From: Paracoccus aurantiacus
Lineage (GTDB): Bacteria; Pseudomonadota; Alphaproteobacteria; Rhodobacterales; Rhodobacteraceae
NCBI RefSeq assembly: GCF_007993065.1
Contig: NZ_VOPL01000010.1
Location: 1 to 64,000, forward strand
Direction: 5' to 3'
DNA: 64,000 nt
Every line of letters begins with the position of its first letter. Within the stretch, counting starts at the first letter, position 1. Positions 5,044 through 52,973 of the stretch are shown here, piece by piece. The translations under genes and the position numbers were made by a program. A model generated the notes under the pieces. It was not told the DNA's origin. It saw nothing but the letters and a program-made list of their open reading frames with translations, and searched no databases.

Positions 5044-6242
5044 TGGCCCGCATCGCCCTGTGCCTGCCGGCGCTGCCCAGCCACGCCGCCGTCCACGGCG
5101 CGTTGGGGCGGGCGCTGGCCGGGCGGGGCCACCGGGTGACGCTTGTCGGCGGGCAGCGGCTGGGACCGCTGGCGGCGCGCGAGTGCTTGACGTTCCACGC
5201 CCTGCCCGGAGCGGGCGCCGACCTGCGCGGCGCGGGGCTGGCGCGGACGCTGTGGGCGACGGCGCAGGACAGCGCGCTGTGGGTCCGGTCCGGGCCGGGG
5301 GCGCTGGCAGCCTTGGCGCCCGACCTGGTGATCGCCGATCAGGCTGAGCCGGGCGCCTCGCTGGCGGCCGAAGCCGCGGGGGTTCGCCGTGCCACGCTGG
5401 CGGCGGCCCTGCCGATGGACCGCGACGACGCCATTCCGCCGCCCTTCGTGGACTGGCCGTTTCTGGAAGGCGAGGCCGCGCGCCGGCGCAACCGGGGCGG
5501 CTGGCGTGTGACGGACGCGCTGCTGGTGCTGCAGCGCCGGGTGCTGCGGCGCGGCTGCCGCGACCACCGTCTGCCCTTGCGCGAGCGGATCGACGAATGG
5601 ATCGCGCCCGACCTGGACCTGCGCCAGCTGGTGCCGGGGCTGGATTACCCTCACCCCTTGCCCCGCGGCGCGGCGCAGGTCGGGCCGCTGCGCGACGCAT
5701 TCGCCCCCGAGCCGCTGGAGCTGGACGACCGGCCGCTGGTCTTTGCCTCGCTGGGGACGCTCGCCGGCGACCGGCGGCGACTGCTGGCGTCCATCGTCGC
5801 GGCGACCAAGGGGATGGGGGTTCAGGTGGCACTGGCCCATGCCGGAACGCTGACCGAGGCCGACGTCCGCGCCCTGCCCCCCCACGTCCATGCCCGCGCC
5901 TTGTGGCCGCAAGCGGCGGTGTTGGCGCGGGCGGCGGCATGCATCACCCATGCGGGGATGAACACGACGCTGGACTGCGTCGCGGCGCGGGTGCCGATGG
6001 TCGCGGTGCCGCTTGCCTTCGAGCAGCCTGCCACCGCCGCGCGGCTGGCCCATCACGGGCTGGCTGTCGTCGTCCCGCCCCGACGCGCCACGCCGGACCG
6101 CCTGCATGCCGCCCTGCGGGACGTGCTGGACGGTGCGGACTGCCGCGCTGCGCTGGCCGTGAAATCCGCCGAACTCGCCGCCGGCGGCGGCACCGCCCGC
6201 GCCGCCGACCGGGTCGAGGCGCTGATCGGGGCCGCCCCATGA
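5043..6242 (+). CDS. crtX: Zeaxanthin/astaxanthin glucosyltransferase CrtX
   Basis: 399-residue GT1-family (UGT-like) glycosyltransferase that transfers glucose from UDP-glucose to hydroxylated carotenoids. Evidence: an MGT/UGT fold with LPALPSHAAVHGALGRALAGRGH at the N-terminus, VFASLGTLAGDR at the start of the nucleotide-binding half, and the signature region ITHAGMNTTLDCVAARVPMVAVPLAFEQPATA near residues 300-330. It sits between crtZ and crtY with 1-bp and 4-bp overlaps. Other UDP-glycosyltransferases of similar sequence exist, but the operon position makes xanthophyll glucosylation by far the likeliest job. Its presence predicts carotenoid glucosides as end products. Confidence 0.9.
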   Translation: MARIALCLPALPSHAAVHGALGRALAGRGHRVTLVGGQRLGPLAARECLTFHALPGAGADLRGAGLARTLWATAQDSALWVRSGPGALAALAPDLVIADQAEPGASLAAEAAGVRRATLAAALPMDRDDAIPPPFVDWPFLEGEAARRRNRGGWRVTDALLVLQRRVLRRGCRDHRLPLRERIDEWIAPDLDLRQLVPGLDYPHPLPRGAAQVGPLRDAFAPEPLELDDRPLVFASLGTLAGDRRRLLASIVAATKGMGVQVALAHAGTLTEADVRALPPHVHARALWPQAAVLARAAACITHAGMNTTLDCVAARVPMVAVPLAFEQPATAARLAHHGLAVVVPPRRATPDRLHAALRDVLDGADCRAALAVKSAELAAGGGTARAADRVEALIGAAP

Positions 6243-7387
6243 GCGGCGTCCTGATCGTCGGCGCCGGGCTGGCCGGCTCGCTGGCCGCCCTCGCGCTGCG
6301 GGCGGCGCGGCCGGGCCTGCCGGTGACGCTGCTGGACGCGGCGCCCGGCCCGTCCGACCGGCACACCTGGTCGTTCCACCACCCCGACCTGACCCCCGTC
6401 TGGCGCGACCTCCTGACCCCCGGCCTGCGGGCCAGCTGGTCCTTGCAGGAGGTTCGCTTCCCGGACCACGGGCGGGTGCTGGAGGCCGGCTATGCCTCGC
6501 TGGACGGACATGGGTTGGCACAACTGGTCGCGGCGTCGGGGGCCACGGTACTGTGGGGCCGCACCGCCGCCGCTGTCGAGGCAAACGCCGTCACGCTGTC
6601 GGGCGGCACGCGGATGACGGCGGACGCCGTCCTCGACGCCCGCGGGCTGCGCGAGGGCCCGCATCTGGTCGCCGGCTATCAGAAGTTCGTCGGCGTGGAA
6701 TACGAGCTGGACGCCCCCCACGGCGTCATCTGCCCGCGCATCATGGACGCCACGGTGCCGCAACTGGACGGCTACCGCTTCGTCTATCTGCTGCCGTTCT
6801 CGCCCACCCGGCTGCTGATTGAGGACACCCGCTACAGCGACGGCGCCGGTCTGGCCGAGCCGGACCTGGTCGCCGCCATCACTGACTACGCTGCTGCGCA
6901 GGGCTGGCAGGGCCGCGAGGTCCGGCGCGAGCGGGGAGTGCTGCCGATCGCGCTGGCGCATGACGCCGCAGGCTTCTGGGCCGCGCAGGACGGGGCGGTG
7001 CCGATCGGGCTGCGCGCCGGGCTGTTCCACCCCGTCACCGGCTATTCCCTGCCCGTCGCCGTGCAGGTCGCGGACGTCATCGCGGCGGCAGACCCGACCA
7101 CCGCCGCAATCCGCGCCGCGGCGCGGGACTTCGCCCTGCGCAAGGCGCACGGCGACCGCTTCCTGCGCCTGCTGAACCGGATGCTGTTCCGCGGCTGCGC
7201 ACCCGACCAGCGCCGCCGCGTCCTGTCGCGCTTCTATCGCCTGCCCGAGCCGCTGATCGAACGCTTCTACGCCGGCCGCCTGACCACGCTCGACAAGCTG
7301 CGGATCGTGACCGGCAAGCCGCCCATCCCGATCCGCGACGCCCTGCCTTGCCTGCCCGAATCCCCCCTGCTGAAGGACGCCCGATGA
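6239..7387 (+). CDS. crtY: Lycopene beta-cyclase CrtY
   Basis: 382-residue FAD/NAD(P)-binding cyclase that converts lycopene to beta-carotene. It begins with the dinucleotide-binding motif GAGLAGSLAALALR, followed by TWSFHH, QKFVGVEY, MDATVPQLDGYRFVYLLPFSP, LLIEDTRYSD, RERGVLPIAL and LFHPVTGYSLP. All are in family order and the length is standard. ATGA overlaps join it to crtX upstream and crtI downstream. Confidence 0.97.
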   Translation: MSGVLIVGAGLAGSLAALALRAARPGLPVTLLDAAPGPSDRHTWSFHHPDLTPVWRDLLTPGLRASWSLQEVRFPDHGRVLEAGYASLDGHGLAQLVAASGATVLWGRTAAAVEANAVTLSGGTRMTADAVLDARGLREGPHLVAGYQKFVGVEYELDAPHGVICPRIMDATVPQLDGYRFVYLLPFSPTRLLIEDTRYSDGAGLAEPDLVAAITDYAAAQGWQGREVRRERGVLPIALAHDAAGFWAAQDGAVPIGLRAGLFHPVTGYSLPVAVQVADVIAAADPTTAAIRAAARDFALRKAHGDRFLRLLNRMLFRGCAPDQRRRVLSRFYRLPEPLIERFYAGRLTTLDKLRIVTGKPPIPIRDALPCLPESPLLKDAR

Positions 7388-8877
7388 GCCAGCCCCGCAC
7401 CGCCCTTGTCATCGGATCGGGCTTCGGCGGGCTGGCGCTCGCCATCCGCCTGCAGTCCGCCGGCATCGCCACGACGATCCTCGAGGCCCGCGACGGCCCC
7501 GGCGGCCGGGCCTACGTCTGGCACGACCAGGGCCACGTCTTTGACGCCGGCCCGACCGTCATCACCGACCCGGACAGCTTGCGCGAGCTGTGGGCGCTGT
7601 CGGGGCAGGACATGGCGCGCGACGTGACGCTGCTGCCGGTTTCGCCCTTCTATCGCCTGCTGTGGGAGGATGGGGCGCGCTTCGACTATGTCGGCGACAG
7701 CGCGGATCTGGAAGCCGAGATCGCAAAGCTGAACCCCGCCGACGTGGATGGCTATCGGCGCTTTCACGACTATGCCGAGGCGGTCTATCAGGAAGGCTAT
7801 CTGCGCCTCGGCACCGTGCCGTTCCTGAACTTCCGCCAGATGCTGTCGGCGGCCCCCGCGCTGGTGAAGCTGGAAGCCTATCGGTCGGTCCACAGCGTCG
7901 TCGCGCGGTTCATCCGAGACCCCCATTTGCGGCAGGCGTTTTCATTCCATACGCTGCTGGTCGGAGGAAACCCGTTCTCAACCTCGGCTATCTATGCGCT
8001 GATCCACGCGCTGGAACGCCGCGGCGGAGTGTGGTTCGCGCAGGGCGGCACCAACCGGCTGGTCGCGGGGATGCTGGCGCTGTTCCAGCGCCTGGGCGGC
8101 ACGCTGCGCCTGAACGCGCCCGTCGCGCAGATCGAGACCGAGGGCGCCCGCGCCACCGGCGTGCGGCTCGGCTCGGGCGAGCGGATCGCGGCGGACATGG
8201 TCGCCAGCAACGCCGACGTAATGCACACCTATCGCGACCTGCTGTCCGGCACCCGGCGCGGCAAGGTCAAGGCCGCGATCCTGGAACGTCAGCGCTGGTC
8301 GATGTCGCTGTTCGTCGTCCATTTCGGCCTCGACCGCCTGCCCGAGGGGCTGGCGCATCACACCGTCCTGTTCGGCCCCCGCTATCGCGAGCTGGTGACC
8401 GAGATCTTCCGCGGCCAGGCCCTGCCCGAGGACTTCTCGCTGTACCTGCACAGCCCCAGCGTGACCGACCCGACGCTGGCCCCCCCGGGCATGTCCACGC
8501 ATTACGCACTGGCCCCGGTCCCGCATCTGGGACGGGCCGAGGTCGACTGGGCGACCGAGGGCCCCGCCTATGCGGACCGCATCCTCGCCGCGCTGGAACG
8601 CCGGGTGATCCCGGACCTGCGCCGGCACCTGCGGGTGCAGCGCATCTTCACGCCCGCCGATTTCGCCCGGCAGCTGAACGCCCACCACGGCAGCGCCTTC
8701 TCGGTCGAGCCGATCCTGGCCCAGTCGGCCTGGTTCCGCCCCCACAACCGCGACCGGGCGATCCGCAACCTCTATATCGTCGGGGCCGGCACCCATCCCG
8801 GCGCGGGCATCCCCGGCGTGGTCGGGTCGGCCAAGGCGACCGCCGGCGTCATGCTGGCCGACGCGGGCGCGGCATGA
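7384..8877 (+). CDS. crtI: Phytoene desaturase CrtI
   Basis: 497-residue FAD-dependent desaturase taking phytoene through four dehydrogenations to lycopene. Visible: N-terminal Rossmann motif IGSGFGGLALAIRLQ, then GGRAYVW, FDAGPTVITDP, HTLLVGGNPFSTSAIY, WFAQGGTNRLVAGM and the C-terminal bacterial phytoene dehydrogenase signature NLYIVGAGTHPGAGIPGVVG. Length is standard for proteobacterial CrtI. Overlaps of 4 bp on both sides place it inside the crt operon. Confidence 0.98.
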   Translation: MSQPRTALVIGSGFGGLALAIRLQSAGIATTILEARDGPGGRAYVWHDQGHVFDAGPTVITDPDSLRELWALSGQDMARDVTLLPVSPFYRLLWEDGARFDYVGDSADLEAEIAKLNPADVDGYRRFHDYAEAVYQEGYLRLGTVPFLNFRQMLSAAPALVKLEAYRSVHSVVARFIRDPHLRQAFSFHTLLVGGNPFSTSAIYALIHALERRGGVWFAQGGTNRLVAGMLALFQRLGGTLRLNAPVAQIETEGARATGVRLGSGERIAADMVASNADVMHTYRDLLSGTRRGKVKAAILERQRWSMSLFVVHFGLDRLPEGLAHHTVLFGPRYRELVTEIFRGQALPEDFSLYLHSPSVTDPTLAPPGMSTHYALAPVPHLGRAEVDWATEGPAYADRILAALERRVIPDLRRHLRVQRIFTPADFARQLNAHHGSAFSVEPILAQSAWFRPHNRDRAIRNLYIVGAGTHPGAGIPGVVGSAKATAGVMLADAGAA

Positions 8878-9785
8878 GCGAGCTGGTCACCGCATCCGAG
8901 CAGGCCATCGCCAAGGGCTCGACCAGCTTCGCCGCGGCCGCGCGGCTGCTGCCGCGGGCGGTGCGGGACGACACGGTGATGCTGTATGCGTGGTGCCGCC
9001 ATGCCGACGACGTGGTGGACGGGCAGGTGTCGGGTGCCGCCCCGGCCGAGGGGCACGACGCCGCCGCGGCGGTCGCCGCGCTGCGGGCCGAGACGCTGGG
9101 GGCGCTACATGGCGACGGGCCGATGGCGCCGCCCTTTGCCGCCCTGGGGACGGTGGCGCGGCGGCACGATTTTCCGGACGCCTGGCCACTGGCGCTGATC
9201 GACGGCTTCACGATGGACGCCGAGGGTCGGCGCTATGCGACACTGACCGACACGCTGGACTATGCCTATCACGTCGCCGGCGTCGTCGGCGTCATGATGG
9301 CCCGTGTAATGGGTGTGCGGGACGAGGACGTGCTGGACCGCGCCTGCGACCTGGGGCTGGCATTCCAGATGACCAACATCGCCCGCGACGTGCAGGACGA
9401 CGCCGCCATCGGGCGGGTCTATCTGCCTCAGGACTGGCTGGACGCAGCCGGGGCGCGGGTGGATGCGCCCGGCACGCCTGCGCTCAACGGCGTGATCGCC
9501 CGGCTAGTGTCCGAGGCCGAGCCCTATTACGCCTCGGCCCGCGGAGGGCTGGCGGGGCTGCCGCTGCAGGCGGCCTGGTCCATCGCGGCGGCGCTGCGCG
9601 TCTATCGCGCCATCGGGCGCAAGATCCTTCGCGCCGGACCGGGCTTCGACGGCCTGCGGGTCAGCACCTCGGGGGTGGAAAAGGCGGCGCTGATTGCGGC
9701 GGCTGCAGCGGATGCAGCAGCGTCGCGCTGGCGCCCGCCACCACCACGGCCCGCCAAGCTGTGGACGCGGCCCAGAACGCCGTGA
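8874..9785 (+). CDS. crtB: Phytoene synthase CrtB
   Basis: 303-residue head-to-head prenyl synthase that joins two geranylgeranyl diphosphates to phytoene, the first committed carotenoid step. Substrate-Mg binding motifs DDVVD (near 45) and DVQDD (near 170) are intact, with GSTSFAAAARLLP, YAYHVAGVVGVMMARVMG, QMTNIARDVQDD and GRVYLPQDW as family signatures. It is the last gene of the operon. The alanine- and proline-rich C-terminal tail (last 30 residues) is not conserved in the family. Confidence 0.97.
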   Translation: MSELVTASEQAIAKGSTSFAAAARLLPRAVRDDTVMLYAWCRHADDVVDGQVSGAAPAEGHDAAAAVAALRAETLGALHGDGPMAPPFAALGTVARRHDFPDAWPLALIDGFTMDAEGRRYATLTDTLDYAYHVAGVVGVMMARVMGVRDEDVLDRACDLGLAFQMTNIARDVQDDAAIGRVYLPQDWLDAAGARVDAPGTPALNGVIARLVSEAEPYYASARGGLAGLPLQAAWSIAAALRVYRAIGRKILRAGPGFDGLRVSTSGVEKAALIAAAAADAAASRWRPPPPRPAKLWTRPRTP

Positions 9786-10567: not shown

Positions 10568-12058
10568 ATGTGCTCAGCTAAGAACGCGTCACCCGCGATA
10601 AACGCTCTGAAGTTTACCCAGTGGCTCGATATCTGGGACGGGTTTGAATATTCGACAAACCCGCCTGACAGGAAGCCGAAACCTTCAATGTTCATTTTTT
10701 CCATGAATGCTTCGACGCTGCGTAGCTATAGCGACGTTTATAAGCGTGAACGAAGCAGTGTTGAATCCGAGGGCATTCAAAGAAAAAGAGACGAGAAGCG
10801 GACGGAACGGATCCAAGAGTATGTCCAGTACGGTTATCCGTACGGCGACCTGAAGGAGAGCCAACGCACATCGGAAAAGGTAGTCCTTAGAAAACCAGGT
10901 TGGCTGCCAACCGCTATCGTAGTGAACATCCTCGAACCCGGCGACGTGCGTCGGGGCAAACAAGCATCTCAAGGTCTGACGGCAAACGTTATTGAAAATT
11001 CAGGGCAATATCAGATCCAACTGCCTCACCTAAACGAGTTCACTCAAGATGATGTTAGACCTTTCGAAGTTATAGATGGCCAGCACCGGCTGTGGGCGTT
11101 TGAAGAGCAGTTGGATGGCGATTATGAGCTACCAGTCGTCGCATTTCATGGGCTCGACATTGCTTGGCAGGCCTATCTTTTCTGGTCGATCAATGTCTCC
11201 CCCAAACGGATCAACCCTAGTCACGCTTTCGATCTTTATCCATTGCTTAGGAACCAAGCTTGGCTTGAGCAAACAGGCGATCTGACCGTCTATCGGGAAG
11301 CTAGGGCGCAGGAAATCACTGAGTGGTTATATAAACACCCGGATTCTGTATGGAAAAACAGGATCAATATGCTTGGCGAAAGTGGCGCTGGTTGGGTGAG
11401 TCAGGCAGCATTCGTGCGATCGTTGACTGCTGCATTTTTCGGAACCGGCCGTGGTAAGGCCGGCCGATACGGTTTGTTTCAAGCAGCCACCCCCGGGCAA
11501 GAAGAGCCCTTGCCGTGGACAAGATCGCAACAGGTAGCTCTTGTACTCGAGTTTTGGCGGTTGGTCAAAGAAGCCATCGATGACGGCGAAGCTGGAGATT
11601 GGGCGGACGCCTTTAAAGGTGCGAAGCCCGAAAGAGATCCTTTCGACGACCGAAGCTCCATGTTGAATCAGGATATGGGTGTCCGTGCGGCTCATGCCGT
11701 CGTGAACGATTTCCTGTATCGTTCCGTTGACCAATGGCAACTTGCAGATTGGGTTGCAGAGGAGTTTGACGAGACCGATACGAACGAAGAAGATGTCTCA
11801 CGATCTCTGGAAACTTTGCGAAATCAGGACTTCTACGAGCCCTTCAAAGAGTTGGCGCTCGCGCTGACACGTTTTGATTGGCGATCCTTGGATGGGCCGG
11901 GAGTTCGAGACAATCGAGATTTAGAGCTTACACGTCGTGCGTATCGCGGGAGCGGCGGTTACACCCTCCTGACAAACGACATCATACGAGAGTTAAGTAA
12001 ATCTCAATCAGCGAGCGTCGCAAAAATCGCCCGAACCATTTCTACCGGCGGTGAGTAA
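10568..12058 (+). CDS. DGQHR-domain (DndB/DpdB-like) protein
   Basis: About 496 residues. Near residue 175 it carries PFEVIDGQHRLWAFEE, the defining motif of the DGQHR family, which includes DndB (DNA phosphorothioation) and DpdB (7-deazaguanine DNA modification). A second family-like block is LPVVAFHGLDIAWQAYLFWSI. The N-terminal part (YSDVYKRERS, RKPGWLPTAIVVNILEP) also fits. The start is uncertain: ATG 10568 or TTG 10556; an internal ATG at 10688 begins MFIFSMNAS. It overlaps the next gene by one base (TAATG). No dndCDE or dpdA is in the window, so its partners are the two downstream genes. Composition is more AT-rich than the flanks, pointing to transfer. A role in DNA modification or phage defence is inferred from the domain and context. 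Confidence 0.75.
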   Translation: MCSAKNASPAINALKFTQWLDIWDGFEYSTNPPDRKPKPSMFIFSMNASTLRSYSDVYKRERSSVESEGIQRKRDEKRTERIQEYVQYGYPYGDLKESQRTSEKVVLRKPGWLPTAIVVNILEPGDVRRGKQASQGLTANVIENSGQYQIQLPHLNEFTQDDVRPFEVIDGQHRLWAFEEQLDGDYELPVVAFHGLDIAWQAYLFWSINVSPKRINPSHAFDLYPLLRNQAWLEQTGDLTVYREARAQEITEWLYKHPDSVWKNRINMLGESGAGWVSQAAFVRSLTAAFFGTGRGKAGRYGLFQAATPGQEEPLPWTRSQQVALVLEFWRLVKEAIDDGEAGDWADAFKGAKPERDPFDDRSSMLNQDMGVRAAHAVVNDFLYRSVDQWQLADWVAEEFDETDTNEEDVSRSLETLRNQDFYEPFKELALALTRFDWRSLDGPGVRDNRDLELTRRAYRGSGGYTLLTNDIIRELSKSQSASVAKIARTISTGGE

Positions 12059-13413
12059 TGGCGGACCCACTTGTAAACAGTCAGATTGGGCTGGCGAACC
12101 CTATATCTATTGTGTCCGAAATTACGACCTTCGGCAGTAAGGCAATAAGAAATTGGCTGCCCTTGGGACATCCGGCTCGCAACTGCCAAATTATGGATCC
12201 TGCAACCAACAGGGGCATTAGACGACTCGACCAGGCGCGTCAGCAACTAACTGACGCTCAGATGATCTCTTTGGTTTCCGCTTGTGGCCCCAATCACTGC
12301 CTAGATGGCTGGAGCTACCTGTCTCGTAGCGTTAGCGCACTTGTTGCTAGGGACGGCCATTCCGCGAAGCATATGGCATACTACGCTCAACTACGGGCAG
12401 CGATGAGTATGCTTGCGGTCTCCGGAGTGGGAATTTTTAACGGCCTAAACATCTGCGTCGACGCAAATGGTGCGGTGCACAAACTGGAGGACAACCGTGA
12501 GAATAAGGGCGGTCACAATACACATAGTATTGTATGGCCTGCACTGGACGCTTGGCTAAGAATTGACACCAATGCTGCTAGATTCCTGTCTGCAATAAAA
12601 CTGCATGGGTCGAACCTTAAAGACGCCCTGGACTCGATCTGGCCGAACCGACAACCTGTATCAATCGTCGTCCCGATGATAGACGCTTGGGCATTCGATT
12701 TAAATGTTGCCACCCAGCACCATGAACAAAGGAATATCTCAAGCTATACACCACATGATCTCAACGAGATACCCTGTTCATTCCAAGATGAAATGGACTT
12801 CTTGTCGGAGACGTGGAATGCCTTGGAGCCCTCGATGCCCAGTGGGTTTACTCAGCTCGACAACCATTTGTTGCGGCGCATGTTTCAGATGGTCCACCAG
12901 CAAGACAATTCTGTATTGGACCCAGAAGACAGAGTGCCGTTGGCTAATAGCTCAGTGGTAACCAGATACAGCGAGCTTGAGCCCACACTTCAGCAGGCTG
13001 TTCCTCAACCTTTCCTTGTAGACGAGGCGGGAGCAAGCGAACCTCAGATATTTCAACTGGCGTCTACGGACGGGTCTACCCCTCGCGCAATGATCTCGCG
13101 TGCCGTACTTCTGCTTAGAGCTGCGACGGCACTGAATGTTCTAACTCTAAACGAGGCTGGGTTCTCTCAACACGGGACAGAGATTAGACCATGGATCGAT
13201 CCCTTGCTTGTTCATCGTGGCATCGTTGCCGCAGATGCGTTGCCAGATAGAATGGCTGATCTGTGGGATAGTACCAAGTTCGCAGTCGAAGACTTCCAAG
13301 CATCGTTGGCCGCCTGCTCATATGATCCGCAAGCTTTCTTTACCGCAAACGACAACGGGACTCCTGCCGTCACGCAACTTGAGCGCGCTGCAATGTGGGG
13401 AATCTGCCCGTGA
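12058..13413 (+). CDS. Unrecognised protein, middle gene of DGQHR-methyltransferase operon
   Basis: 451 residues and no family that I can name. Most distinctive is a helical-looking block around residues 85-125, HCLDGWSYLSRSVSALVARD followed by HSAKHMAYYAQLRAAMSMLA and SGVGIFNG, which has the look of a paired-helix (HEPN-like) module. HEPN membership is a guess, because no clear R-x4-6-H nuclease motif is seen. Next comes KLEDNRENKGGHNTHSIVWPA. No transmembrane segment or signal peptide is apparent. It overlaps the DGQHR gene by 1 bp and the methyltransferase by 4 bp (GTGA), so all three are probably made together. Composition matches its partners, not the flanks. Confidence 0.7.
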   Translation: MADPLVNSQIGLANPISIVSEITTFGSKAIRNWLPLGHPARNCQIMDPATNRGIRRLDQARQQLTDAQMISLVSACGPNHCLDGWSYLSRSVSALVARDGHSAKHMAYYAQLRAAMSMLAVSGVGIFNGLNICVDANGAVHKLEDNRENKGGHNTHSIVWPALDAWLRIDTNAARFLSAIKLHGSNLKDALDSIWPNRQPVSIVVPMIDAWAFDLNVATQHHEQRNISSYTPHDLNEIPCSFQDEMDFLSETWNALEPSMPSGFTQLDNHLLRRMFQMVHQQDNSVLDPEDRVPLANSSVVTRYSELEPTLQQAVPQPFLVDEAGASEPQIFQLASTDGSTPRAMISRAVLLLRAATALNVLTLNEAGFSQHGTEIRPWIDPLLVHRGIVAADALPDRMADLWDSTKFAVEDFQASLAACSYDPQAFFTANDNGTPAVTQLERAAMWGICP

Positions 13414-14540
13414 AATATATGGGCTCAAAAAGGTCCATGCTGACCAACGGGCTTGGGGACGCTCTCAGCCAATCGGTAGCGGAATGCAATCGTGTATTCG
13501 ACCTATTCACAGGGTCTGGAGCCGTTGCGTGGCATGTCGCTCAGAAATACGACCGCGAAGTAATTGCTTCCGACCTCCAATCCTACGCGGTCGCATTAGC
13601 AGCCGGGGTAATTGAAAGAACCGAGTCTATAGCTGATCATCGTTGGGTAGACACCTGGTTCGACAGTGCTAGAGCGATGCAGCCAGATAGCTTTTTTCAA
13701 GAGGCTACAGTCCTTCAAGAGAAACTGGAGATTGACCAAATTTCGGCATCTGCGATTGACGCACAGGAACTCTGCGCGGACGTCAACTTACCCGTCTGCT
13801 TTGCTTACGGAGGCTACTACTTCTCTCCGCTCCAAGCGCTTTGGCTGGATACACTGCGCATTACTCTTCCCAACAATGCCAATCAGCGTAGGATAGGCCT
13901 AGCGTCTCTTATTATCGCTGCGAGCCAATCCGCAGCCGCGCCAGGCCACACAGCACAGCCGTTCAAACCAAATGAAACAGCTGGGCGTTTCCTAAGAGAA
14001 GCTTGGATGAGGGATATCCAATTCCTGGTTAAACGGGCGGTCATTTCTGTATCGGAGAAGTGCGCCAGAAAAGCAGGAAGAGCAGTTGTCGCAGATGCAA
14101 ACGAACTGGCCAAACAAGTTGGTGAAGGTGATCTGGTGTTTCTGGATCCACCTTACTCTGGAGTGCACTATAGCCGCTTCTATCACGTCCTAGAGACTAT
14201 TGCAGTCGGGAAGGTCGGAGAAATATCGGGTATCGGTCGATATCCCTCTCCAAGTGATCGACCCCGGTCAGATTACAGCTTGCGAACCAAGTCTAAGCTG
14301 GTTTTTGAAGGGCTACTAAAAGTCATATCAGAAAAGGGTGCATCAGGAATTGTAACGTTTCCAGCTGGTGAAGCAAGCAACGGAATGAGTGGTCAAGATG
14401 TGACTGAAATATCCGAAAGACATTTTTCGATACTTGAAAGAAAGGTGTCATCTAGGTTTTCGACTCTCGGCGGCGACAAGATACACCGCGATGCCCGTCA
14501 GGTTACAGAAGAATTGATACTGATATTGTCTCCGCGGTAA
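13410..14540 (+). CDS. D12-class N6-adenine DNA methyltransferase
   Basis: 376 residues. It opens with VKYMGSKRSM, typical of Dam/D12-class methyltransferases, has the SAM-binding motif FDLFTGSGAVAWHVA near residue 30, and the catalytic motif IV DPPYSGVHYSRFYHVLE near 250. I prefer GTG 13410, which gives a GTGA overlap with the upstream stop and follows GGGGAA; GTG 13395 would add five residues. No restriction endonuclease gene is adjacent, so this is either an orphan methylase or the modification arm of an unusual system with the DGQHR protein and its unknown partner. Target sequence cannot be read from the gene. Confidence 0.85.
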   Translation: MKYMGSKRSMLTNGLGDALSQSVAECNRVFDLFTGSGAVAWHVAQKYDREVIASDLQSYAVALAAGVIERTESIADHRWVDTWFDSARAMQPDSFFQEATVLQEKLEIDQISASAIDAQELCADVNLPVCFAYGGYYFSPLQALWLDTLRITLPNNANQRRIGLASLIIAASQSAAAPGHTAQPFKPNETAGRFLREAWMRDIQFLVKRAVISVSEKCARKAGRAVVADANELAKQVGEGDLVFLDPPYSGVHYSRFYHVLETIAVGKVGEISGIGRYPSPSDRPRSDYSLRTKSKLVFEGLLKVISEKGASGIVTFPAGEASNGMSGQDVTEISERHFSILERKVSSRFSTLGGDKIHRDARQVTEELILILSPR

Positions 14541-15404: not shown

Positions 15405-16085
15405 ATGTGCAATCTGTACGCGAATACGACGGCGCAGGAGGCAATGCGGGGACTGTTCAAGGTCGCGACAGAGCGCGACCGACTCGGCAATGAACAGCCT
15501 CGCCCAGCCATCTGGCCGAAATATGATGCGCCGGTCGTGCGCATTGACGGAGACGGTGAACGTGAGCTGGTGCTGATGAAATGGGGCTTTCTGACGCCGA
15601 AGACCTCGGCGAAGACGGGAAAGCCCCTGAAGCCGGACGCCTGGAACAATGCCCGAGACGACAAGGTGGCCAGCTCGGGCCTGTGGAAGTCGTCATTTGC
15701 TGGCCGGCGGTGCCTGGTGCCGGTTTCGGCGTTCCGCGAGGCCAAGGGCAGAAATCCAGCAACGGATTTCTGGTTCGGCCTCGCAGCCGAAGCCGATGAC
15801 GACCGCCCGCCCTTCGCCTTCGCTGGTCTCTGGAGCGACGGCCAGCCAGGCGTCGACGGCGAAGAGGGTGACTGGCTGACCCATACGGTTGTGACGACGG
15901 TGGCAAACGAGCTTGTCAAGCCAGTCCACCCGACGCGGATGCCGGTGATCCTCGATCCCGGCGATTACGATGCCTGGCTCGACGGATCCGAATCCGAGGC
16001 CGGAAAACTGCTTCGACCCTATCCAGCCGAAAAAATGCGGATCGTGCGACAGGGCGTCGGCATTACATCTGACAAGGATCAGTGA
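15405..16085 (+). CDS. SRAP/YedK-like abasic-site DNA-protein crosslink protein
   Basis: 226-residue SOS-response-associated peptidase family protein (HMCES/YedK). The catalytic Cys is residue 2 (MCNLYANTT), which after Met removal forms a thiazolidine with abasic sites in single-stranded DNA. Also seen: the conserved Asn in WNNARDDK, the RRCLVPVSAFREAKG block, and HPTRMPVILDP, which contains the conserved histidine. Length and motif order are normal. It forms a transcription unit with the zinc-ribbon gene and overlaps the convergent DUF1173 gene by 7 bp. Confidence 0.92.
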   Translation: MCNLYANTTAQEAMRGLFKVATERDRLGNEQPRPAIWPKYDAPVVRIDGDGERELVLMKWGFLTPKTSAKTGKPLKPDAWNNARDDKVASSGLWKSSFAGRRCLVPVSAFREAKGRNPATDFWFGLAAEADDDRPPFAFAGLWSDGQPGVDGEEGDWLTHTVVTTVANELVKPVHPTRMPVILDPGDYDAWLDGSESEAGKLLRPYPAEKMRIVRQGVGITSDKDQ

Positions 16086-17206
16086 CCGCCGCCAGCCGGG
16101 GCCGGCAAGGCGGGCATCTCGATTTCATCGGCCGGCCAGAACCACGGCTGATAAACGCCGTCCTCGGCAATATCATGCAGGGTTTCCTCGTCGTCGGCCG
16201 ACAGCCCGTCTGGCGGGACATAGAGCGCGATTGGCGCGCCGGTGTCGAGCAAGAGGGCATTCGCGACCGGCGCCGACGATTGGAGATTGTATTTCAGCGA
16301 CTTGGCATAGGCGCGGTCCTTCAGTGCCTCGACGAGCTGATGCTCGCGGTCGCCGTCGAACGGGATCCAGTGTTCATTGACCGTCATGCCGGCAATCTCC
16401 CGGATCTCGGCATAGTTATTGCGGATGCTGAACGTCGCAATCAGGATCAGATGCCCGTCGCCTGCAGCTTCTATGGCATGGATCTTGTCCGCAAAAAGCC
16501 TGTCGAAGCGCGCCGCCAGGTCATCGTCCATAAAAAAGGCAAAATCCGGCAGATGCTTCATCTTCAGCTTTCGGCCATATTGTGACGGCTCGATCGACTT
16601 GAACTCTGCGACGACAATACCAAGCGGGACAGGCTTGCCGCGCTGCGGGGCCAGCCCGCGCAACCAGCTGCGCCGCTCCAGGGCCAGTTCATCTCGGCGT
16701 TCGTGATTGTAGACTGGCGGCACCATAAGGACCGACGCGAAGGGCTGCGCCTTGGTCCCGGTATTCTGTGCCACCCCGGTCAACTCGCGATGGATAATCC
16801 ACCAGTTCCGGCGCTGCCATTGCGGACGCCACTTTGTGAGGCCGGCGGCATCCCAGAGATAGTGAAGCGTGCCGAGCAAAGAGAGTTTCTTGGGGTTGGC
16901 GACGGCAGAGGATGCCTCAGTGTCGCCGGCGTCGTCGGTGACGATTGCGGCCCCGGCGACGTGTCCGAGTCCGGACAGCTCGGGCGGCGGATCGAACGAC
17001 GCGCAGCCAGGGTCGTGGGCATGGCCGGTTCCTGGCATCCGCTTCAGGTAATATTCGCCGCCAATCAGGGCGACATACATTTTCGGGTGTGCGGGGCAGC
17101 ACAGGCACGAGGGCCGAAGCTTCTGGCTGTGAGCCTGTTCGAGAATGGTCTGAAAGTTCGGAGCGTCTGCAGAAAATTCAAAGTCGTTAATGCGATACGA
17201 TGACAC
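16079..17206 (-). CDS. DUF1173 family protein
   Basis: 375 residues. The N-terminal block PSCLCCPAHPKMYVALIGGEYYLKRMPGTG-H-HDPGCASF (around residues 30-70) is the cysteine-rich hallmark of DUF1173, a family encoded mainly on plasmids and integrative elements of alpha- and betaproteobacteria. Its function is unknown. The GTG start at 17206 is preceded by GAGGAA. The C-terminus is acidic and proline-rich. It is convergent with the SRAP gene and divergent from the VapBC-like pair. The family habit supports an accessory-element setting. Confidence 0.8.
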   Translation of the reverse strand: MSSYRINDFEFSADAPNFQTILEQAHSQKLRPSCLCCPAHPKMYVALIGGEYYLKRMPGTGHAHDPGCASFDPPPELSGLGHVAGAAIVTDDAGDTEASSAVANPKKLSLLGTLHYLWDAAGLTKWRPQWQRRNWWIIHRELTGVAQNTGTKAQPFASVLMVPPVYNHERRDELALERRSWLRGLAPQRGKPVPLGIVVAEFKSIEPSQYGRKLKMKHLPDFAFFMDDDLAARFDRLFADKIHAIEAAGDGHLILIATFSIRNNYAEIREIAGMTVNEHWIPFDGDREHQLVEALKDRAYAKSLKYNLQSSAPVANALLLDTGAPIALYVPPDGLSADDEETLHDIAEDGVYQPWFWPADEIEMPALPAPAGGGH

Positions 17207-17281
17207 TTTGTGGGTTCCTCCGGCAGCCTGTTGCCGCCGTTCTAATCAATCATCAAGCAAGTCCTGGTTGACATTCTAACG

Positions 17282-17330
17282 TCTGGATATACATTATCGA
17301 ATATCTGGATATACCACAAGAGATATACAC
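17282..17330 (+). promoter_or_regulatory. Phased direct repeats, probable vapBC operator/promoter
   Basis: The 11-mer TCTGGATATAC occurs at 17282-17292 and again at 17304-17314, exactly 22 bp apart (two helical turns). A partial third copy, GATATACAC, occurs at 17322-17330, just before the vapB start at 17333. Such phased repeats upstream of an antitoxin gene are typical autoregulatory operators; the AT-rich core could also serve as a -10 region. Confidence 0.65.
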
Positions 17331-17332
17331 CA

Positions 17333-17581
17333 ATGCCGGGACTTTTCATCAGGGATGAAGCGGTTAACGCGCTTGCTGTGGAGGCTATGAGGCTGACCGG
17401 CGCAGATAATAAAACAGAGGCTGTTCGATCTGCCTTGAAGGCTGCCATCAACGCGGCCAAGGATCAAGTTCCTTTGCTGGAACGTCTTGAATCTGCGAGA
17501 GCTATTGCTGACAAGATCGGACCAGTGAACCCTGACTACGATGCGAAGGCAGATGCTGACGCCATGTGGGGCGAATACTGA
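17333..17581 (+). CDS. VapB-type antitoxin
   Basis: 82 residues. The N-terminal part (LFIRDEAVNALAVEAMRLTGADNKTEAVRSAL) matches the ribbon-helix-helix/PSK-like DNA-binding domain of VapB antitoxins. The C-terminal tail, ending MWGEY, would wrap the toxin. Its stop overlaps the toxin start by one base (TGATG). It probably represses its own promoter through the phased repeats at 17282-17330. Confidence 0.8.
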   Translation: MPGLFIRDEAVNALAVEAMRLTGADNKTEAVRSALKAAINAAKDQVPLLERLESARAIADKIGPVNPDYDAKADADAMWGEY

Positions 17582-18000
17582 TGTTCATAGATGCGTCAGC
17601 GGTGGTGGCGATACTGAACCGCGAGCCTGGATCCGACGAATTGGCAAAACGGCTTGCTGCCAGTGACAAGCCTCCGCTGTTTTCTCCGCTCGCGCGATAT
17701 GAGGCGGTTGTAAGCTTGGCCAGATCGCGTTCTGGAAAGCACAAGGCACCTGACAGCGACCAGTTCAAGGCAGCAAAGGCTGCTGTCGATCTGTTTTTTC
17801 AGGAAGCCCGCGCTAAGAGCGTGATGATCTCAGATACTCTCGGTGCAGGCGCGCTTGCGGTGGCGCAATCCTACGGGAAGGCCGTTGGGCACGAGGCCGA
17901 TCTGAATTTCGGAGACTGCTTCTCCTACGCCTGTGCAAAAGGTTATCGGGTCGCGCTTCTCTACAAAGGCAATGATTTTGCAAAGACTGATCTGGCCTGA
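17581..18000 (+). CDS. VapC-type PIN-domain ribonuclease toxin
   Basis: 139 residues. PIN-domain acidic residues are visible at MFIDASAVVAIL (first Asp), SPLARYEAVVSLAR (Glu) and NFGDCFSYACAK (Asp), ending in LYKGNDFAKTDL, the last conserved acidic region. VapC toxins cleave tRNA or rRNA when freed from the antitoxin. The ATG at 17581 overlaps the antitoxin stop; an upstream GTG at 17566 is less likely. Such pairs stabilise plasmids after segregation. All motifs are intact, so the gene is probably active. Confidence 0.85.
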   Translation: MFIDASAVVAILNREPGSDELAKRLAASDKPPLFSPLARYEAVVSLARSRSGKHKAPDSDQFKAAKAAVDLFFQEARAKSVMISDTLGAGALAVAQSYGKAVGHEADLNFGDCFSYACAKGYRVALLYKGNDFAKTDLA

Positions 18001-20890: not shown

Positions 20891-22171
20891 TCACGCGGCT
20901 TGGCCACTGAGCCTGCCATAGAAGCTGCGTTCGAGGTGCAGCTCCCCTGCCCCGGCCTTTTCGACCATGCCACGCAGATAGCCGCCCGGCGAGGAAACTT
21001 CGCCGGCGCAATGCTTCTCGAAGACAAGCGCGAGCGCCGCTGTCGCCACCTGTTTGCCCAAACGGTCCTGCGCCACGTTCCAGGCATGTTCAGAAATGCC
21101 GATCATCGGCCTGAGTTGACCAGCGACTCGGTGCAGATCGCCCCAATCCTTCAGGAACCCGCCCAAATTGCGCGCCCAGGATGCGAATTCCGGGCAGGCC
21201 TGTATCACAGTCGGAAGATCCAGCGCGGCGCGCTTCTTGCGCACCTCGGCAACCCACTCTTCCAGCTCCCTGTCAACCTGATCCTCGGGCTGAGCGTTGG
21301 GCACCACGGCCGCGACTTCCTCTTTTTCTGAGGAATTACGAGTTACAGGATTAAGTTGGTTTGTAATTAGTATATGAGGGTCAAAAATGACCTCCCTGGG
21401 GTTCATTTCTTGAATTTTCTTAGAACCTTGTTCCTTGGTTTCAGGGGTGTTTTCCACAGGCTGAACGACCTCGGTTGCCTTGAGATAGGCCGCTTCGACG
21501 CGCTCCTGAAGCTCCTTGAACCAGGTTAGCAGCCGCTCAAGCTGTTCTGAAGCTTCATGGCGGCGAGGAAGCCGGTCCAGAAGCTCCTCGAAGAGACCTA
21601 TGAATTGCGTCCAGGGTCCTCGCAGCGCGCTGCTGACGGCCGCTTCGATCCGAGCGCGGATCATACGGCGTGCAACCGTGATCTGGCGCTTCAGGCGCTG
21701 ACAGAGCTCGCGCTCGGCTTGCAATTCGGCATGAAGCTCCTCGAACTCCTCGACGCGCGCCGACAGCGGCGACAGATCGAAGCCATAGGCCTCGACGATG
21801 CGCCCCTCGGCGTCCCTGCGGCCCCACCGCTTGCCGTTCGGGCTGTCCTGGAAGGAAATCACGCCGATCTCGGCCAGCCGCCGTGCATGGCGCTTGAGCG
21901 TAGAGAGCGAGAAACCCGTCTGCTCCATCAGATAGGCATTCGATGCCCAGACGATCGGACGCTGCCCCTCCTCCCAATCCAGGGCCTGTGTAAAGGCCCC
22001 GAGCGTATCGAGGAGCATCACATCTCCTGCCTTAAGGCCAATGTAGGCCCCCACCCGCTTCACAGCCACGAAGGCCCGCGTTTTGGGTACAGCTACCTGT
22101 TCACCGGCTTGGGCAAGCTGCTCTGCAATGCCAAGACCCGGTGTCGGCTTGCGCCAACCTGTATGTTTCAT
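20891..22171 (-). CDS. repC: RepC replication initiator (repABC)
   Basis: 426 residues. The winged-helix N-terminal half is recognisable in MLLDTLGAFTQALDW, RPIVWASNAYLMEQTGFSLS and LKRHARRLAEIGVISFQDSPNGKRWGRRD, followed by YGFDLSPLSARVEEFEEL and a long coiled segment. The C-terminal domain carries ISEHAWNVAQDRLGKQVATAAL and SSPGGYLRGMVEKA. RepC starts replication, normally at an origin inside its own gene. It follows repA and repB in the canonical order, with a 219-bp repB-repC gap that holds an antisense RNA. The SD sequence lies in a hairpin. It appears intact. Confidence 0.93.
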   Translation of the reverse strand: MKHTGWRKPTPGLGIAEQLAQAGEQVAVPKTRAFVAVKRVGAYIGLKAGDVMLLDTLGAFTQALDWEEGQRPIVWASNAYLMEQTGFSLSTLKRHARRLAEIGVISFQDSPNGKRWGRRDAEGRIVEAYGFDLSPLSARVEEFEELHAELQAERELCQRLKRQITVARRMIRARIEAAVSSALRGPWTQFIGLFEELLDRLPRRHEASEQLERLLTWFKELQERVEAAYLKATEVVQPVENTPETKEQGSKKIQEMNPREVIFDPHILITNQLNPVTRNSSEKEEVAAVVPNAQPEDQVDRELEEWVAEVRKKRAALDLPTVIQACPEFASWARNLGGFLKDWGDLHRVAGQLRPMIGISEHAWNVAQDRLGKQVATAALALVFEKHCAGEVSSPGGYLRGMVEKAGAGELHLERSFYGRLSGQAA

Positions 22172-22183
22172 GCCTGTTTCTCA

Positions 22184-22201
22184 CCTCCAGTTATGTGGAG
22201 G
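22184..22201 (-). promoter_or_regulatory. Hairpin sequestering the repC ribosome-binding site
   Basis: CCTCCA (22184-22189) and TGGAGG (22196-22201) form a 6-bp stem with a 6-nt loop. On the repC mRNA one arm contains the GGAGG Shine-Dalgarno core upstream of the ATG at 22171. This fits the repABC model, in which antisense RNA binding favours a structure hiding the repC start signals. Confidence 0.6.
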
Positions 22202-22234
22202 CAAAAGAAAGCCGTTCGCTCAGAAGCGTTCTTG

Positions 22235-22325
22235 TTGACAGTGATTCGAGAGAGACTTATCTTCAAGGCGACCAAACCAATAAGATCAGCTCTCAGGCCC
22301 TCAGCTTGGGGGCTTTTCTTTTGCC
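22235..22325 (+). ncRNA. repABC antisense RNA (ctRNA) with promoter and terminator
   Basis: On the strand opposite repABC, TTGACA (22235-22240) is followed after exactly 17 bp by TATCTT (22258-22263), a strong sigma-70 promoter. Transcription from about 22,270 would end at a hairpin GCCCTC-AGCTT-GGGGGC (22298-22313) followed by TTTTCTTTT. The roughly 50-nt RNA lies in the repB-repC gap, as the incompatibility RNA does in other repABC plasmids, and would control RepC level and plasmid incompatibility. Exact ends are estimates. Confidence 0.8.
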
Positions 22326-22390
22326 TTTAGATCACATTCTTCCTTCTTGCTCGTTGTCTCAATGTATGGAGATGCACCGGTATTCAGGCT

Positions 22391-23407
22391 CTAGCCCGTC
22401 GGTGGAACCTCCTTATTCTTTGCCAAGAAGTCCGCGATCAGATCGCTCAACTCCTCAAGCTTCTCTTGGCTCAGCGGTACGCTTGCTGCTTTGATCGAGA
22501 GATTGCCGTTCGCTGACGTGAGCGAGAGATTACGACCCCCTACCTTGCGCTTGGCGGTGATCTTCTGAGCGGACTTTCTGACTTGCTTCTTCGGCTTGCC
22601 CTCAAGGCTGGCCAGCGCTTTTTGCAGATCCTGGAAGCTCATGTCGTAAGCGTTCTTGAACGCGTTCAAGATTTGATCTCGAGCCCCGAAAACTGCGCGA
22701 GCGCGCGACACGATACTCTCGTGGACTCCAATACGTGCTGCAAACGCTACCGCAGTCGTCTTCCCGCCAGACACACGAAGCGTCTCGTACATCTCTCCGA
22801 TAGCCAGTAGGCGCTCGAATGCGCCAAGGTTCTCCCTTTCCTCGTTTTCCCGGAAACGGAGGAACAGCATCTCGAACTGCGCGTTCTCCGCGCCTCGCTT
22901 CTCTGGGGGCGCCACGATTGCTCGAAGCTTAAGCCCCAAGGTTTTCGCTGCAGCATGACGACGTCTGCCGGTCAGCATGATAAAGCGAGCATCCGCGACA
23001 TCTGTTGGGCTCAACGGGTCGGGCTTCCAATACGGATCCTCTGGCCAAACAAGGATGGGCGTGTCTTGGCCGTTGATTTCGATGCTCTTAAGAAGCGTTT
23101 GAAAGGCCTCTTGTGCCAGCCAGTCATCACGACGATCTGAACCTAACGGATCCTGCACTTGTTCCGGTGAAATCTGAAGTTCGTGACGGCCGTTCAGAAT
23201 GTCATCGACGAGCTGCGTACGTCCCTGCTCTATCGCTGCCTGCGATTGGGCAAGTGCGCCGGCCTTCCATGCACTACCTGCTCCCTTGAAAGGTGCAGTA
23301 GTAGAAGACGGTGCAGTGTCGACTTTTGCCTCGTCGCCATTGCCACTCGGCTCAGCTGATTGGTTCAACGCTTTCGAAACCAGCGACCTCGGGATAGTTC
23401 GCTTCAT
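22391..23407 (-). CDS. repB: RepB (ParB-like) plasmid partition protein
   Basis: 338 residues. ParB/Spo0J-type features: LLKSIEINGQDTPILVWPE, then FIMLTGRRRHAAAKTLGLKLRAIV (ParB nuclease-fold motif), FRENEERENLGAFERLLAIGEMYE, and an HTH (GGKTTAVAFAARIGVHESIVSRARAVF). RepB binds parS-like sites and works with RepA in segregation. It overlaps repA by 4 bp. A parS-like palindrome lies within its own coding region (22654-22671). Confidence 0.93.
   Translation of the reverse strand: MKRTIPRSLVSKALNQSAEPSGNGDEAKVDTAPSSTTAPFKGAGSAWKAGALAQSQAAIEQGRTQLVDDILNGRHELQISPEQVQDPLGSDRRDDWLAQEAFQTLLKSIEINGQDTPILVWPEDPYWKPDPLSPTDVADARFIMLTGRRRHAAAKTLGLKLRAIVAPPEKRGAENAQFEMLFLRFRENEERENLGAFERLLAIGEMYETLRVSGGKTTAVAFAARIGVHESIVSRARAVFGARDQILNAFKNAYDMSFQDLQKALASLEGKPKKQVRKSAQKITAKRKVGGRNLSLTSANGNLSIKAASVPLSQEKLEELSDLIADFLAKNKEVPPTG
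22654..22671. promoter_or_regulatory. parS-like palindrome inside repB
   Basis: TCTTGAACGCGTTCAAGA is a perfect 18-bp palindrome. The same core occurs upstream of repA at 24906-24925. Repeated perfect palindromes of 14-16 bp around repABC genes are the known RepB-binding parS sites. This copy lies within the repB coding sequence. Confidence 0.7.
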
Positions 23408-24762: not shown

Positions 24763-24905
24763 ATCGCTGCCCCGACTTCGGTTGATTCCGAGTTCGACTC
24801 GTTTCGCCACTCATAGTAGCACTATTGTGGGCGCAATTGGAAGATACCACGCGCCTACCTGAATTCACGAGTATGATTAAAGGCGGTGAGGTGCAAAACG
24901 ATCTA

Positions 24906-27218: not shown

Positions 27219-27275
27219 AATTACGACATCAGAGACATACTTCAGTGATCCGCATTTATCATCTATTCTGCGGAT

Positions 27276-28292: not shown

Positions 28293-28702
28293 CCACGAGC
28301 CCGGCCGTCGTCTCGCCCCAGCACCGGATCCTGGTGCGCTCGCGCATCGCCCGGACCATGTTCGGTGCGGACGAGGTGCTGGTTGCCGCCAAGCAGCTGT
28401 GCCAGATCGAGGGCATCGACGTGGCGCAGGATCTGGACGAGGTGACCTATGTCCATTTTCTCTTCGATACCCACCAGACCGTCCTGGCCAATGGCGCGGA
28501 AACGGAATCGCTCTTCACCGGCGACGAGGCGCTGAAATCGGTTGGTCCGGCGGCGTTGGAGGAGATCTTCACGATATTCCCTGAACTTCGAGCTCCTGAG
28601 CATGCTCATGTCCCGGCGCGGGAACTGGTCTCGGGCGGGCAGGGCCGCAAGCTGGCGATGCGTCACCTGCAGAACCGTAAGCCGCTGGTGGGAGAGGTCT
28701 GA
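28289..28702 (+). pseudogene. Hint-domain protein, C-terminal fragment
   Basis: From about 28,310 the frame reads SPQHRILVRSRIARTMFGAD, VLVAAKQL, VTYVHFLFDTHQTVLANGAETESLF, TGDEALKSVGPAALEEI and FPEL. This is the second half of the Hint (Hedgehog/intein-like) domain proteins common in Rhodobacterales. The catalytic N-terminal Cys block and any preceding domains are missing. A GTG at 28289 overlapping the HTH gene stop could still allow translation, but the protein would be only a fragment. Confidence 0.75.
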
Positions 28703-29129
28703 GGAGAGGGCTAGACTGTGTGACCAGTCGCAAGGCGGTGGAGGACGTCTCACGGCCCGGGCGTGATCTCGGCAGAGAATTTGGCCCCGGAGTCTGCGAA
28801 CAGACGCGGGGGCTAACTGGCCGCGCGGTGATTGCAGGAACCGGGAAACCGAACTTTTGGGTAGCCGTTGCCTGGCCCCGGCAAACCTTTCCACGTCCAA
28901 TGTCAGGCATCTGCTACTCACAACCGCCCAACTGGACCGTTGAAAACAAAAATGCCCCGCCAAAACAGGCGGGGCATACTCTTTCCTCGGGGGGGGGACA
29001 GAACTATATCGCCACAATATGGCTTCGATAACAGCTTAGGTAAACTTACCTGTCTGGACAGGCCATGTGTCAATTTGCCTCGTCTCGTCTGTTGAGGTTT
29101 ACCGCGTCGCGCACCTGTATTCTACCGGA
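28703..29129. other. Intergenic with one terminator
   Basis: 427 bp without a convincing gene. It contains the hairpin listed at 28942-28977 and a G9 run at about 28,990. Short frames on both strands show no motifs. Confidence 0.5.
28942..28977 (-). terminator. Rho-independent terminator (minus strand)
   Basis: ATGCCCCGCC (28952-28961) and GGCGGGGCAT (28968-28977) form a perfect 10-bp stem with loop AAAACA. On the minus strand it is followed by TTTTGTTTTC (28942-28951), a typical U-tract. It would end transcription of the minus-strand gene at 29,130-29,618. Confidence 0.8.
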
Positions 29130-48540: not shown

Positions 48541-48601
48541 TCACGCGACGTGCCTAGCGCGCGGCGCCCAAGCTTTAGTCCACCTCTGAAAGGCAGGATC
48601 G

Positions 48602-52969: not shown

Positions 52970-52973
52970 CGAA

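Follow-up and report, generated by a model that had tools for sequence, protein, structure and literature searches.

The locus described here raises the question of whether three overlapping genes can make up a DNA-modification or phage-defence system of their own. The genes lie together on contig NZ_VOPL01000010.1 of Paracoccus aurantiacus (assembly GCF_007993065.1), in a stretch of 64,000 nucleotides (positions 1 to 64,000, forward strand) referred to below as the window. They encode a protein with the motif DGQHR (gene 1), a middle protein called MID here (gene 2) and a D12-class N6-adenine DNA methyltransferase (gene 3). A first-pass annotation, made from the sequence alone, had described three genes with overlaps of 1 and 4 bp and had suggested that they could form a self-contained system; the coordinates of the open reading frames (ORFs) bear out the gene structure, all three genes being intact (Table 1). 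Wherever it could be tested, the DGQHR and MID genes were found together, and a DNA-modification enzyme normally adjoined them. The reading put forward here, to which we give about an even chance, is that the trio is a self-contained, horizontally moving module that combines DNA modification with an effector. It has the appearance of a novel defence or selfish system based on DNA marking.

Table 1. Positions in the window of the three genes and of the domains and motifs discussed in the text
Feature	Position	Strand	Remarks
Gene 1, DGQHR protein	10568..12058	+	496 aa; ParB/sulfiredoxin-type domain (predicted) and helical C-terminal half
ParB/sulfiredoxin (Srx) fold part of gene 1, residues 38-214 (predicted)	10679..11209	+	VIA-align rows 1-7 and 12: PadC/ParB/Noc/KorB chains aligned from residue 38 to 214 or 215, Z 4.7-6.5
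DGQHR motif of gene 1, residues 170-174	11075..11089	+	Invariant in 40/40 aligned sequences
Gene 2, MID	12058..13413	+	451 aa; 1-bp overlap with gene 1; effector or adaptor candidate
RNxSSY motif of MID, R225-N226-x-x-S229-Y230	12730..12747	+	Within predicted helix
Gene 3, D12-class N6-adenine DNA methyltransferase	13410..14540	+	376 aa; GTG start; 4-bp overlap with gene 2; long subfamily
Catalytic motif DPPY of gene 3, residues 246-249	14145..14156	+	

Co-occurrence of the three genes

When gene 2 was used as a tblastn query against 72,556 plasmid records, five were found, namely four Zymomonas plasmids of the same length and one plasmid of Rhizobium tumorigenes; the two plasmid loci examined (Zymomonas and Rhizobium) match the trio of the window in gene content and order. 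When genomes of 84,980 species were searched with an alignment of four MID sequences, 64 pattern matches included 38 loci, and in IMG/VR 30 pattern matches included four; these together with the window, the two plasmid loci and one further genome locus make 46 MID loci. A gene of the same DGQHR subfamily lies directly upstream of MID and on the same strand in 45 of the 46, the remaining locus (L025) being cut by the end of its contig. In blastn the window aligned with a locus of Tateyamaria omphalii (L005; Roseobacteraceae) in three pieces at 73-74% identity, all within the trio (window 10598-14501, L005 8541-12444), and nothing aligned in the flanks examined. The first-pass annotation had held that its proposal would fall if homologues of the three genes never occurred together, but they do; with DGQHR at 45 of 46 MID loci and only the trio aligned in blastn, a self-contained module is strongly supported.

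The association was also found from the other two genes. An alignment of DGQHR proteins (40 rows) led to at least nine viral-contig loci among the 600 pattern matches listed, two of them being the contigs of L044 and L045 already found by MID; among the matches listed, nine of nine loci carried MID and a D12 methylase. The search with 19 aligned D12 methylases of the long subfamily yielded 12 viral-contig loci out of 39 pattern matches. All eight close relatives (489-578 bits) had DGQHR and MID just upstream, whereas neither gene accompanied the four distant relatives (82-154 bits); five of the eight contigs were already known from the MID or DGQHR searches and three were new. Among 372 genomes of the window's class (Alphaproteobacteria), the long methylase gave three matches at E <= 1e-30, the window's own with 561 bits and two others with 112 and 121 bits, and in the latter two genomes no DGQHR or MID was found within the short loci examined. 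Because close relatives carry both partners and distant ones neither, the long D12 methylase looks to be specific to the module. Gene 3 used as a tblastn query matched one plasmid, that of Rhizobium (E <= 1e-20), and no phage (E <= 1e-10).

Counted by contig, the module is present at 56 loci or more (46, plus seven from the DGQHR search and three from the methylase search), a count in which IMG/VR and genome loci are taken separately and may share strains. It extends to about 12 phyla, archaea included. Pseudomonadota, Chloroflexota, Binatota, Actinomycetota, Verrucomicrobiota, Poribacteria, Nitrospinota, Cyanobacteriota, Planctomycetota, Campylobacterota and Methanobacteriota appear on the tree described below, and KSB1 is added by record title; many of these genomes are metagenome-assembled, in which binning errors are possible. 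Within the window's class the module is rare; among 385 alphaproteobacterial genomes DGQHR (E <= 1e-20) and MID (E <= 0.001) occurred in the same two, the window's own included. No conserved fourth gene was found in the neighbourhoods, where the most recurrent clusters were recombinases (5 loci) and MT-A70 methylases (4), followed by the dnd set and some others at 3 loci each.

Exchange of the modification enzyme

The enzyme beside the pair differs among the 46 loci. A long D12 methylase lies directly downstream in 24; a short, Dam-like D12 methylase lies downstream in 10 and on the other strand in 1 (L045). An MT-A70 methylase is present in 4, either as the next gene in convergent orientation (L002, L037, L042) or upstream (L009), all four being confirmed by PF05063, and a dnd phosphorothioation cluster in 3 (L017, L035, L038). 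L029 holds a desulfurase fragment only, at the contig end, and L034 reaches its contig end where the partner would be expected. The two kinds of D12 methylase are different subfamilies, as the profile of the long ones gave 438-595 bits for 27 long and 12-24 bits for 16 short sequences, with no score reported for the enzyme of L013. In the window, the assignment of gene 3 to the D12 class by the first-pass annotation is confirmed by a match to PF02086 (60.3 bits, cut-off 22) and by the DPPY motif; in PADLOC it matched generic methylase models and, weakly, mad2. DPPY is kept in 44 of 44 D12 partners, which together with the exchange for MT-A70 or dnd enzymes supports the proposed role in DNA modification.

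In the dnd loci L017 and L035 the models for DndC, DndD and the dnd restriction enzyme were matched above their cut-offs, as were dnd_assoc_4 and DndE in L035. In L038 DndD is above the cut-off, the restriction enzyme (460 of 600) and DndA (437 of 480) are both short of it, and dndC and dndE were assigned by BLAST clustering only. In the two Pseudanabaena loci (L017, L035) the DGQHR-MID pair is placed inside the dnd cluster, with dndC following it and the dnd_assoc_4 gene, which was scanned in L035 and recognised by BLAST kinship in L017, preceding it; a 111-aa protein, which we take to be XisI-like, is found in the same interval, as are two more genes in L017. Of the other dnd-locus proteins, the PLD-helicase and the second SMC-type ATPase resemble the CxC/Pbe systems of PMC10853773.

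On a tree of DGQHR and MID (51 rows, 47 of them with enzyme labels; quick method, SH-aLRT only), the labels need at least 10 changes (5 with both D12 types merged, 12 with the two rows in which no enzyme was seen). Well-supported branches force at least four separate placements of MT-A70 and at least two of dnd. The DGQHR-MID pair is constant and the modification enzyme has been exchanged repeatedly.

This exchange bears on two other explanations of the pair. The pair could possibly act like DndB as an epigenetic or plasmid-maintenance switch, limiting DNA modification or setting its timing, and not attack invaders, which we consider rather unlikely. No recognised nuclease occurs in the trio (Pfam, NCBIfam, PADLOC, PHROGs), as would suit a regulator, and in the dnd loci, where a restriction-type helicase is already present, the pair may be regulatory. 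However, if the pair regulated a single enzyme, it should be replaced along with that enzyme, and the pair stays through at least 10 enzyme changes, 5 of them between the D12, MT-A70 and dnd classes, and with partners on the other strand (L002, L037, L042, L045, L054). It is far less probable that DGQHR and MID help the enzyme to place the modification, as the DpdB ATPase is said to do for DpdA, the trio then being a composite modification machine. The tight gene overlaps would agree with such a machine, and DpdB, a ParB-like ATPase, is said in the accessible part of PMC12839542 to drive dPreQ0 insertion, but unrelated enzymes are exchanged and gene 1 scored only 35 bits against the DpdB model (NF041060, cut-off 300). 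Moreover, with the catalytic motif retained in the D12 partners and the dnd genes present as sets, these enzymes should be able to mark DNA unaided.

Protein families and the proposed mechanism

The DGQHR hallmark noted by the first-pass annotation is present in gene 1, which scored 30.3 bits against PF14072 DndB (cut-off 29.1) and 77.2 bits against TIGR03187 DGQHR (cut-off 58.85). F205 and N209 (FxxxN) are invariant, and so is the pair Q71-R72 wherever the aligned rows have letters. DGQHR, the QR pair and FxxxN form the motif set given for the DGQHR domain in the available text of PMC4619093, and by family cut-offs and motifs gene 1 belongs to the DGQHR/DndB superfamily. It is not DndB proper, the score being 49.2 bits against the dnd equivalog cut-off of 450 (NCBIfam). 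As the annotation had remarked, no dnd, dpd or restriction gene was found nearby, apart from the trio's own matches, among the window ORFs scanned (sets of 7, 10 and 7 covering part of the window, 4 of the first 7 also in further libraries).

In the predicted structure of gene 1 (pLDDT 86, pTM 0.76), the first 14 VIA-align rows were PadC, ParB, Noc, KorB or sulfiredoxin (Z 4.5-6.5), and SspE 6jiv (Z 3.7) and BrxU 7p9k (Z 3.5) came after them; the model thus points to a ParB/sulfiredoxin-type fold like that of SspE and GmrSD. Foldseek gave no match at E <= 0.001, PadC being first at E 1.4, and the C-terminal half had no clear fold match. Pfam gave no HNH nuclease domain for gene 1 or gene 2, and none is among the families listed for the 43 MIDs. 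The Arthrobacter phages Atuin, Racecar and Talia1610 show weak DGQHR/ParB-like similarity to gene 1 in their first 3 kb (30-32% across 21% of the protein, at two places per ~194-kb genome).

The middle gene, which the first-pass annotation could not name, remained without a named family in the libraries tried. No match up to E 1 was obtained in Pfam, PADLOC or PHROGs, and NCBIfam gave noise only (E 0.11 and 0.15). A housekeeping family, which the annotation held would speak against its proposal, is not indicated by the 43 homologues, as each Pfam family hit at most one of them (best E 0.0045), and a housekeeping origin of MID was rejected. A viral origin was also rejected, with no BFVD match at E <= 0.001 and none among 50,697 phage records; a query with the single MID sequence likewise found no viral contig. 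Among PDB chains, phmmer found none up to E 1 and the MID profile gave three matches at E 0.4-0.64. The predicted structure (pLDDT 90, pTM 0.92) is mostly helical with a few short strands, and Foldseek found nothing in PDB or BFVD at E <= 0.001. A set of polar residues (H80, H105, Y108, Y109, R113, H156, D214, R225, N226, S229, Y230 and R348) does not vary among the 43 MIDs, as would be expected of an active or binding site. An HD-hydrolase was considered, as the dNTPase 7w1f is the first Foldseek row (E 0.49), and discarded because MID has no invariant HD pair.

The model suggests that MID could have a HEPN-like fold. Its two best VIA rows were Roquin 4qik (Z 5.0, root-mean-square deviation 4.3, 133 aligned) and Csm6 8jh1 (Z 4.7, deviation 5.1, 139 aligned), both of which contain HEPN domains. 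The RNxSSY motif is similar to an RxxADY-type motif of several PF05168 members, and the YYA helix also aligns. On this basis MID could be a HEPN-like RNase or another toxin, restrained by DGQHR and methylated DNA and released upon loss of the element or infection, and carriage on plasmid, transposon-like and IMG/VR contigs would be consistent with such an abortive or addiction system. We regard this as unlikely. For helical models the tool treats Z values of this size as uninformative; a designed GPCR-like fold ties with them (Z 4.1). In hhalign the probability was 6% against a four-row alignment of PF05168 members (P 0.0062, no control), 2.4% against an 18-row alignment (P 0.019, not significant) and 1.1% against a single YaaC protein; controls for the 18-row comparison gave P values of 0.093 (DGQHR), 0.06 (reversed MID), 0.56 (long methylase) and 0.21-0.88 (eight column shuffles). 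The HEPN catalytic motif is Rx4-6H, which is absent from MID, where the invariant R225 is followed by Y230, a tyrosine where the histidine would be expected.

A fixed pair beside unrelated marking enzymes is best explained, by analogy with SspE, as a mark reader with an effector. In the modification-plus-effector module proposed here, the methyltransferase would mark host DNA. The DGQHR protein (DndB-like, with a ParB/Srx fold) would bind and probably hydrolyse a nucleoside triphosphate (NTP) and would sense the DNA mark or its absence, and MID, in complex with DGQHR, would execute the response by cleaving unmarked invader DNA or, if it is HEPN-like, by attacking RNA in infected cells. The working mode would be like that of SspABCD-SspE or of restriction-modification (R-M) systems, namely a mark, its NTP-gated reading, and an effector that would lie outside the known nuclease families. 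According to the available part of PMC13251355, mark recognition by SspE triggers GTP hydrolysis and so licenses the nuclease, and in that of PMC12704722 ParB-fold relatives bind CTP, ATP or GTP, a DndB-like protein binding ATP and GTP. By this analogy the DGQHR protein is likely an NTP switch, and MID is likely an effector or adaptor. As the pair occurs with D12, MT-A70 and Dnd genes, reading of the mark should be independent of any single fixed methylation sequence. More tentatively, DGQHR and MID could be a mark-agnostic two-protein reader-effector core of bacteria and archaea that accepts N6-methyladenine (m6A) made by D12 or MT-A70 enzymes as well as phosphorothioate, with an effector of undescribed fold, although we think this doubtful.

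Several points weigh against the modification-plus-effector module. The nuclease, toxin and NTPase activities of the trio proteins are predicted ones. MID has no significant sequence or fold match, its comparison with the HEPN profile is not significant, and all VIA Z values are below 8, a range graded as middling by the tool. L021 and L023 have no modification enzyme within the DNA examined, the dnd loci already have a restriction-type helicase (dnd_restrict_1), and few of the 116 neighbour genes scanned match PADLOC defence models (25 of 72 families listed, no background control). DGQHR is split into two ORFs, with MID staying open, in L009 (2401-3929), L042 (8289-9808) and L057 (6599-8117, about 2 kb before MID); two of these three loci have MT-A70 partners, and decay, phase switching and assembly error are candidate causes. 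Finally, three m6A motifs are given for Zymomonas mobilis ZM4 in the available text of PMC8432527, two assigned by mutants and one presumed to be that of CcrM, and if ZM4 carries pZZM405, the module methylase would be without a detectable mark of its own there.

The trio resembles several known systems in part. SspABCD-SspE and GmrSD/BrxU combine a ParB/Srx NTPase with an HNH nuclease, and gene 1 shares the DGQxR motif and, as predicted, the ParB/Srx fold; SspE also acts in DNA-mark-dependent defence (available part of PMC13251355), as is proposed for the trio. Unlike them, DGQHR and MID have no HNH match, the helical partner MID is separate and the modification enzymes are others. The DGQHR, QR and FxxxN motifs, the PF14072 match and the position among dnd genes with a restriction-type helicase in three loci recall DndB and Dnd, whereas the 496-aa protein has a C-terminal half of its own, MID is new, and methylases replace dnd in most loci. 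The DpdB of Dpd 7-deazaguanine systems likewise has a DGQHR domain, but gene 1 falls below its equivalog cut-off and no dpd gene was seen among the genes scanned. As in type II R-M systems with a D12 methyltransferase, a stand-alone adenine methylase adjoins a candidate effector; in contrast to them, there are two partner genes, the methylase is exchangeable and no endonuclease is recognised, as no restriction endonuclease (REase) model matched gene 1 or gene 2 (Pfam, NCBIfam, PADLOC), though one of the two could be a nuclease of a new kind. MID shares with the HEPN superfamily a hint of its helical fold and the RNxSSY and YYA motifs, and differs from it in the missing profile or fold match and in the replacement of His by Tyr.

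No description of the trio or of the DGQHR-MID pair was found in the literature searched (mostly outside subscription journals and bioRxiv; later work is possible), and the pair is not described in the available parts of PMC10853773, PMC12839542, PMC12704722 and PMC4619093. Mark-agnostic reading, if true, would set the pair apart from R-M, BREX, DISARM, Dnd/Ssp and Dpd as a new class of immunity gated by DNA modification. The trio also bears on how DndB, DpdB and other ParB/Srx 'DGQ' proteins link a mark on DNA to an effector; because the proposed reader-effector pair is fixed while the marking enzyme varies, this coupling becomes directly testable here. The trio is small enough to be cloned whole, and in MID, a putative new family of effectors or adaptors, the residues to be mutated are clearly defined.

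Mobility and genomic surroundings

Among 43 loci with sufficient flanking sequence, all but L012 have a lower guanine-plus-cytosine content (GC) in DGQHR-MID than in the flanks; the mean difference is 8 points, and a few differences are of less than 1 point. The mobile settings comprise a repC-bearing contig, a transposon-like neighbourhood in Rhizobium and IMG/VR contigs. The Rhizobium trio adjoins genes with Mu-transposase C-terminal, TniB and TniQ domains and a recombinase, a set which is presumably Tn5053-like. The Zymomonas trio adjoins DUF4433 and macro-domain genes, which we take to be a DarTG pair, and one scanned neighbour matches DarG (PADLOC).

Of 148 neighbour genes listed, 116 were scanned against PADLOC and matched 72 families at E <= 1e-15; some very large genes, the neighbours from L035, L038, L043 and L045, the MT-A70 genes of L037 and L042 and others were left out. 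Among the 25 of 72 families listed, defence matches included type I REase models and C3a156 (two members each) and, once each, type III methylase and REase, DarG, AbiEii, PDC-S05, PDC-S57 and type II methylase. There was no background control, and therefore no defence-island enrichment is claimed. Against PADLOC-DB 2023 the trio itself matched no known defence-system model, gene 2 giving no match and gene 1 a weak one to DpdB. Phage defence by the trio is inferred from its mobility, patchiness, low GC and company.

In the window, GC is 0.51-0.53 across 11-15 kb, the region of the trio, 0.69-0.77 across 5-10 kb and 0.61-0.63 across 15-17 kb. The AT-rich trio of the first-pass annotation was thus confirmed, whereas its GC-rich flanks hold only in part, the right flank being uneven with patches of 0.54 (17-18 kb) and 0.53-0.55 (22-25 kb). 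Broken genes had been reported upstream. This does not hold for 5597-9785, where lycopene cyclase, an FAD amine-oxidoreductase-type gene (by position presumably phytoene desaturase) and phytoene synthase have near full-length domain matches; short ORFs only occupy 9.8-10.5 kb.

On the other side, plasmid functions were found as annotated. RepC and a ParA-type ATPase lie in a repABC-like order at 20894-24810, with an intervening gene lacking a Pfam match, and a second, separate RepC at 52064-53107. Since the contig (77 kb, in an assembly of 42 contigs) carries these genes, the trio is most likely plasmid-borne; the two separate RepC genes could possibly reflect a co-integrate or a two-replicon plasmid. 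The carotenoid genes would then also be on the apparent plasmid. Downstream of the trio (15405-18000) are a SRAP peptidase, a DUF1173 protein on the other strand and a VapB-type antitoxin/PIN pair. Long minus-strand ORFs at 27266-29017, 42674-43960 and 48578-50725 (584, 429 and 716 aa), which have no Pfam match at E 1e-5, may be antisense frames.

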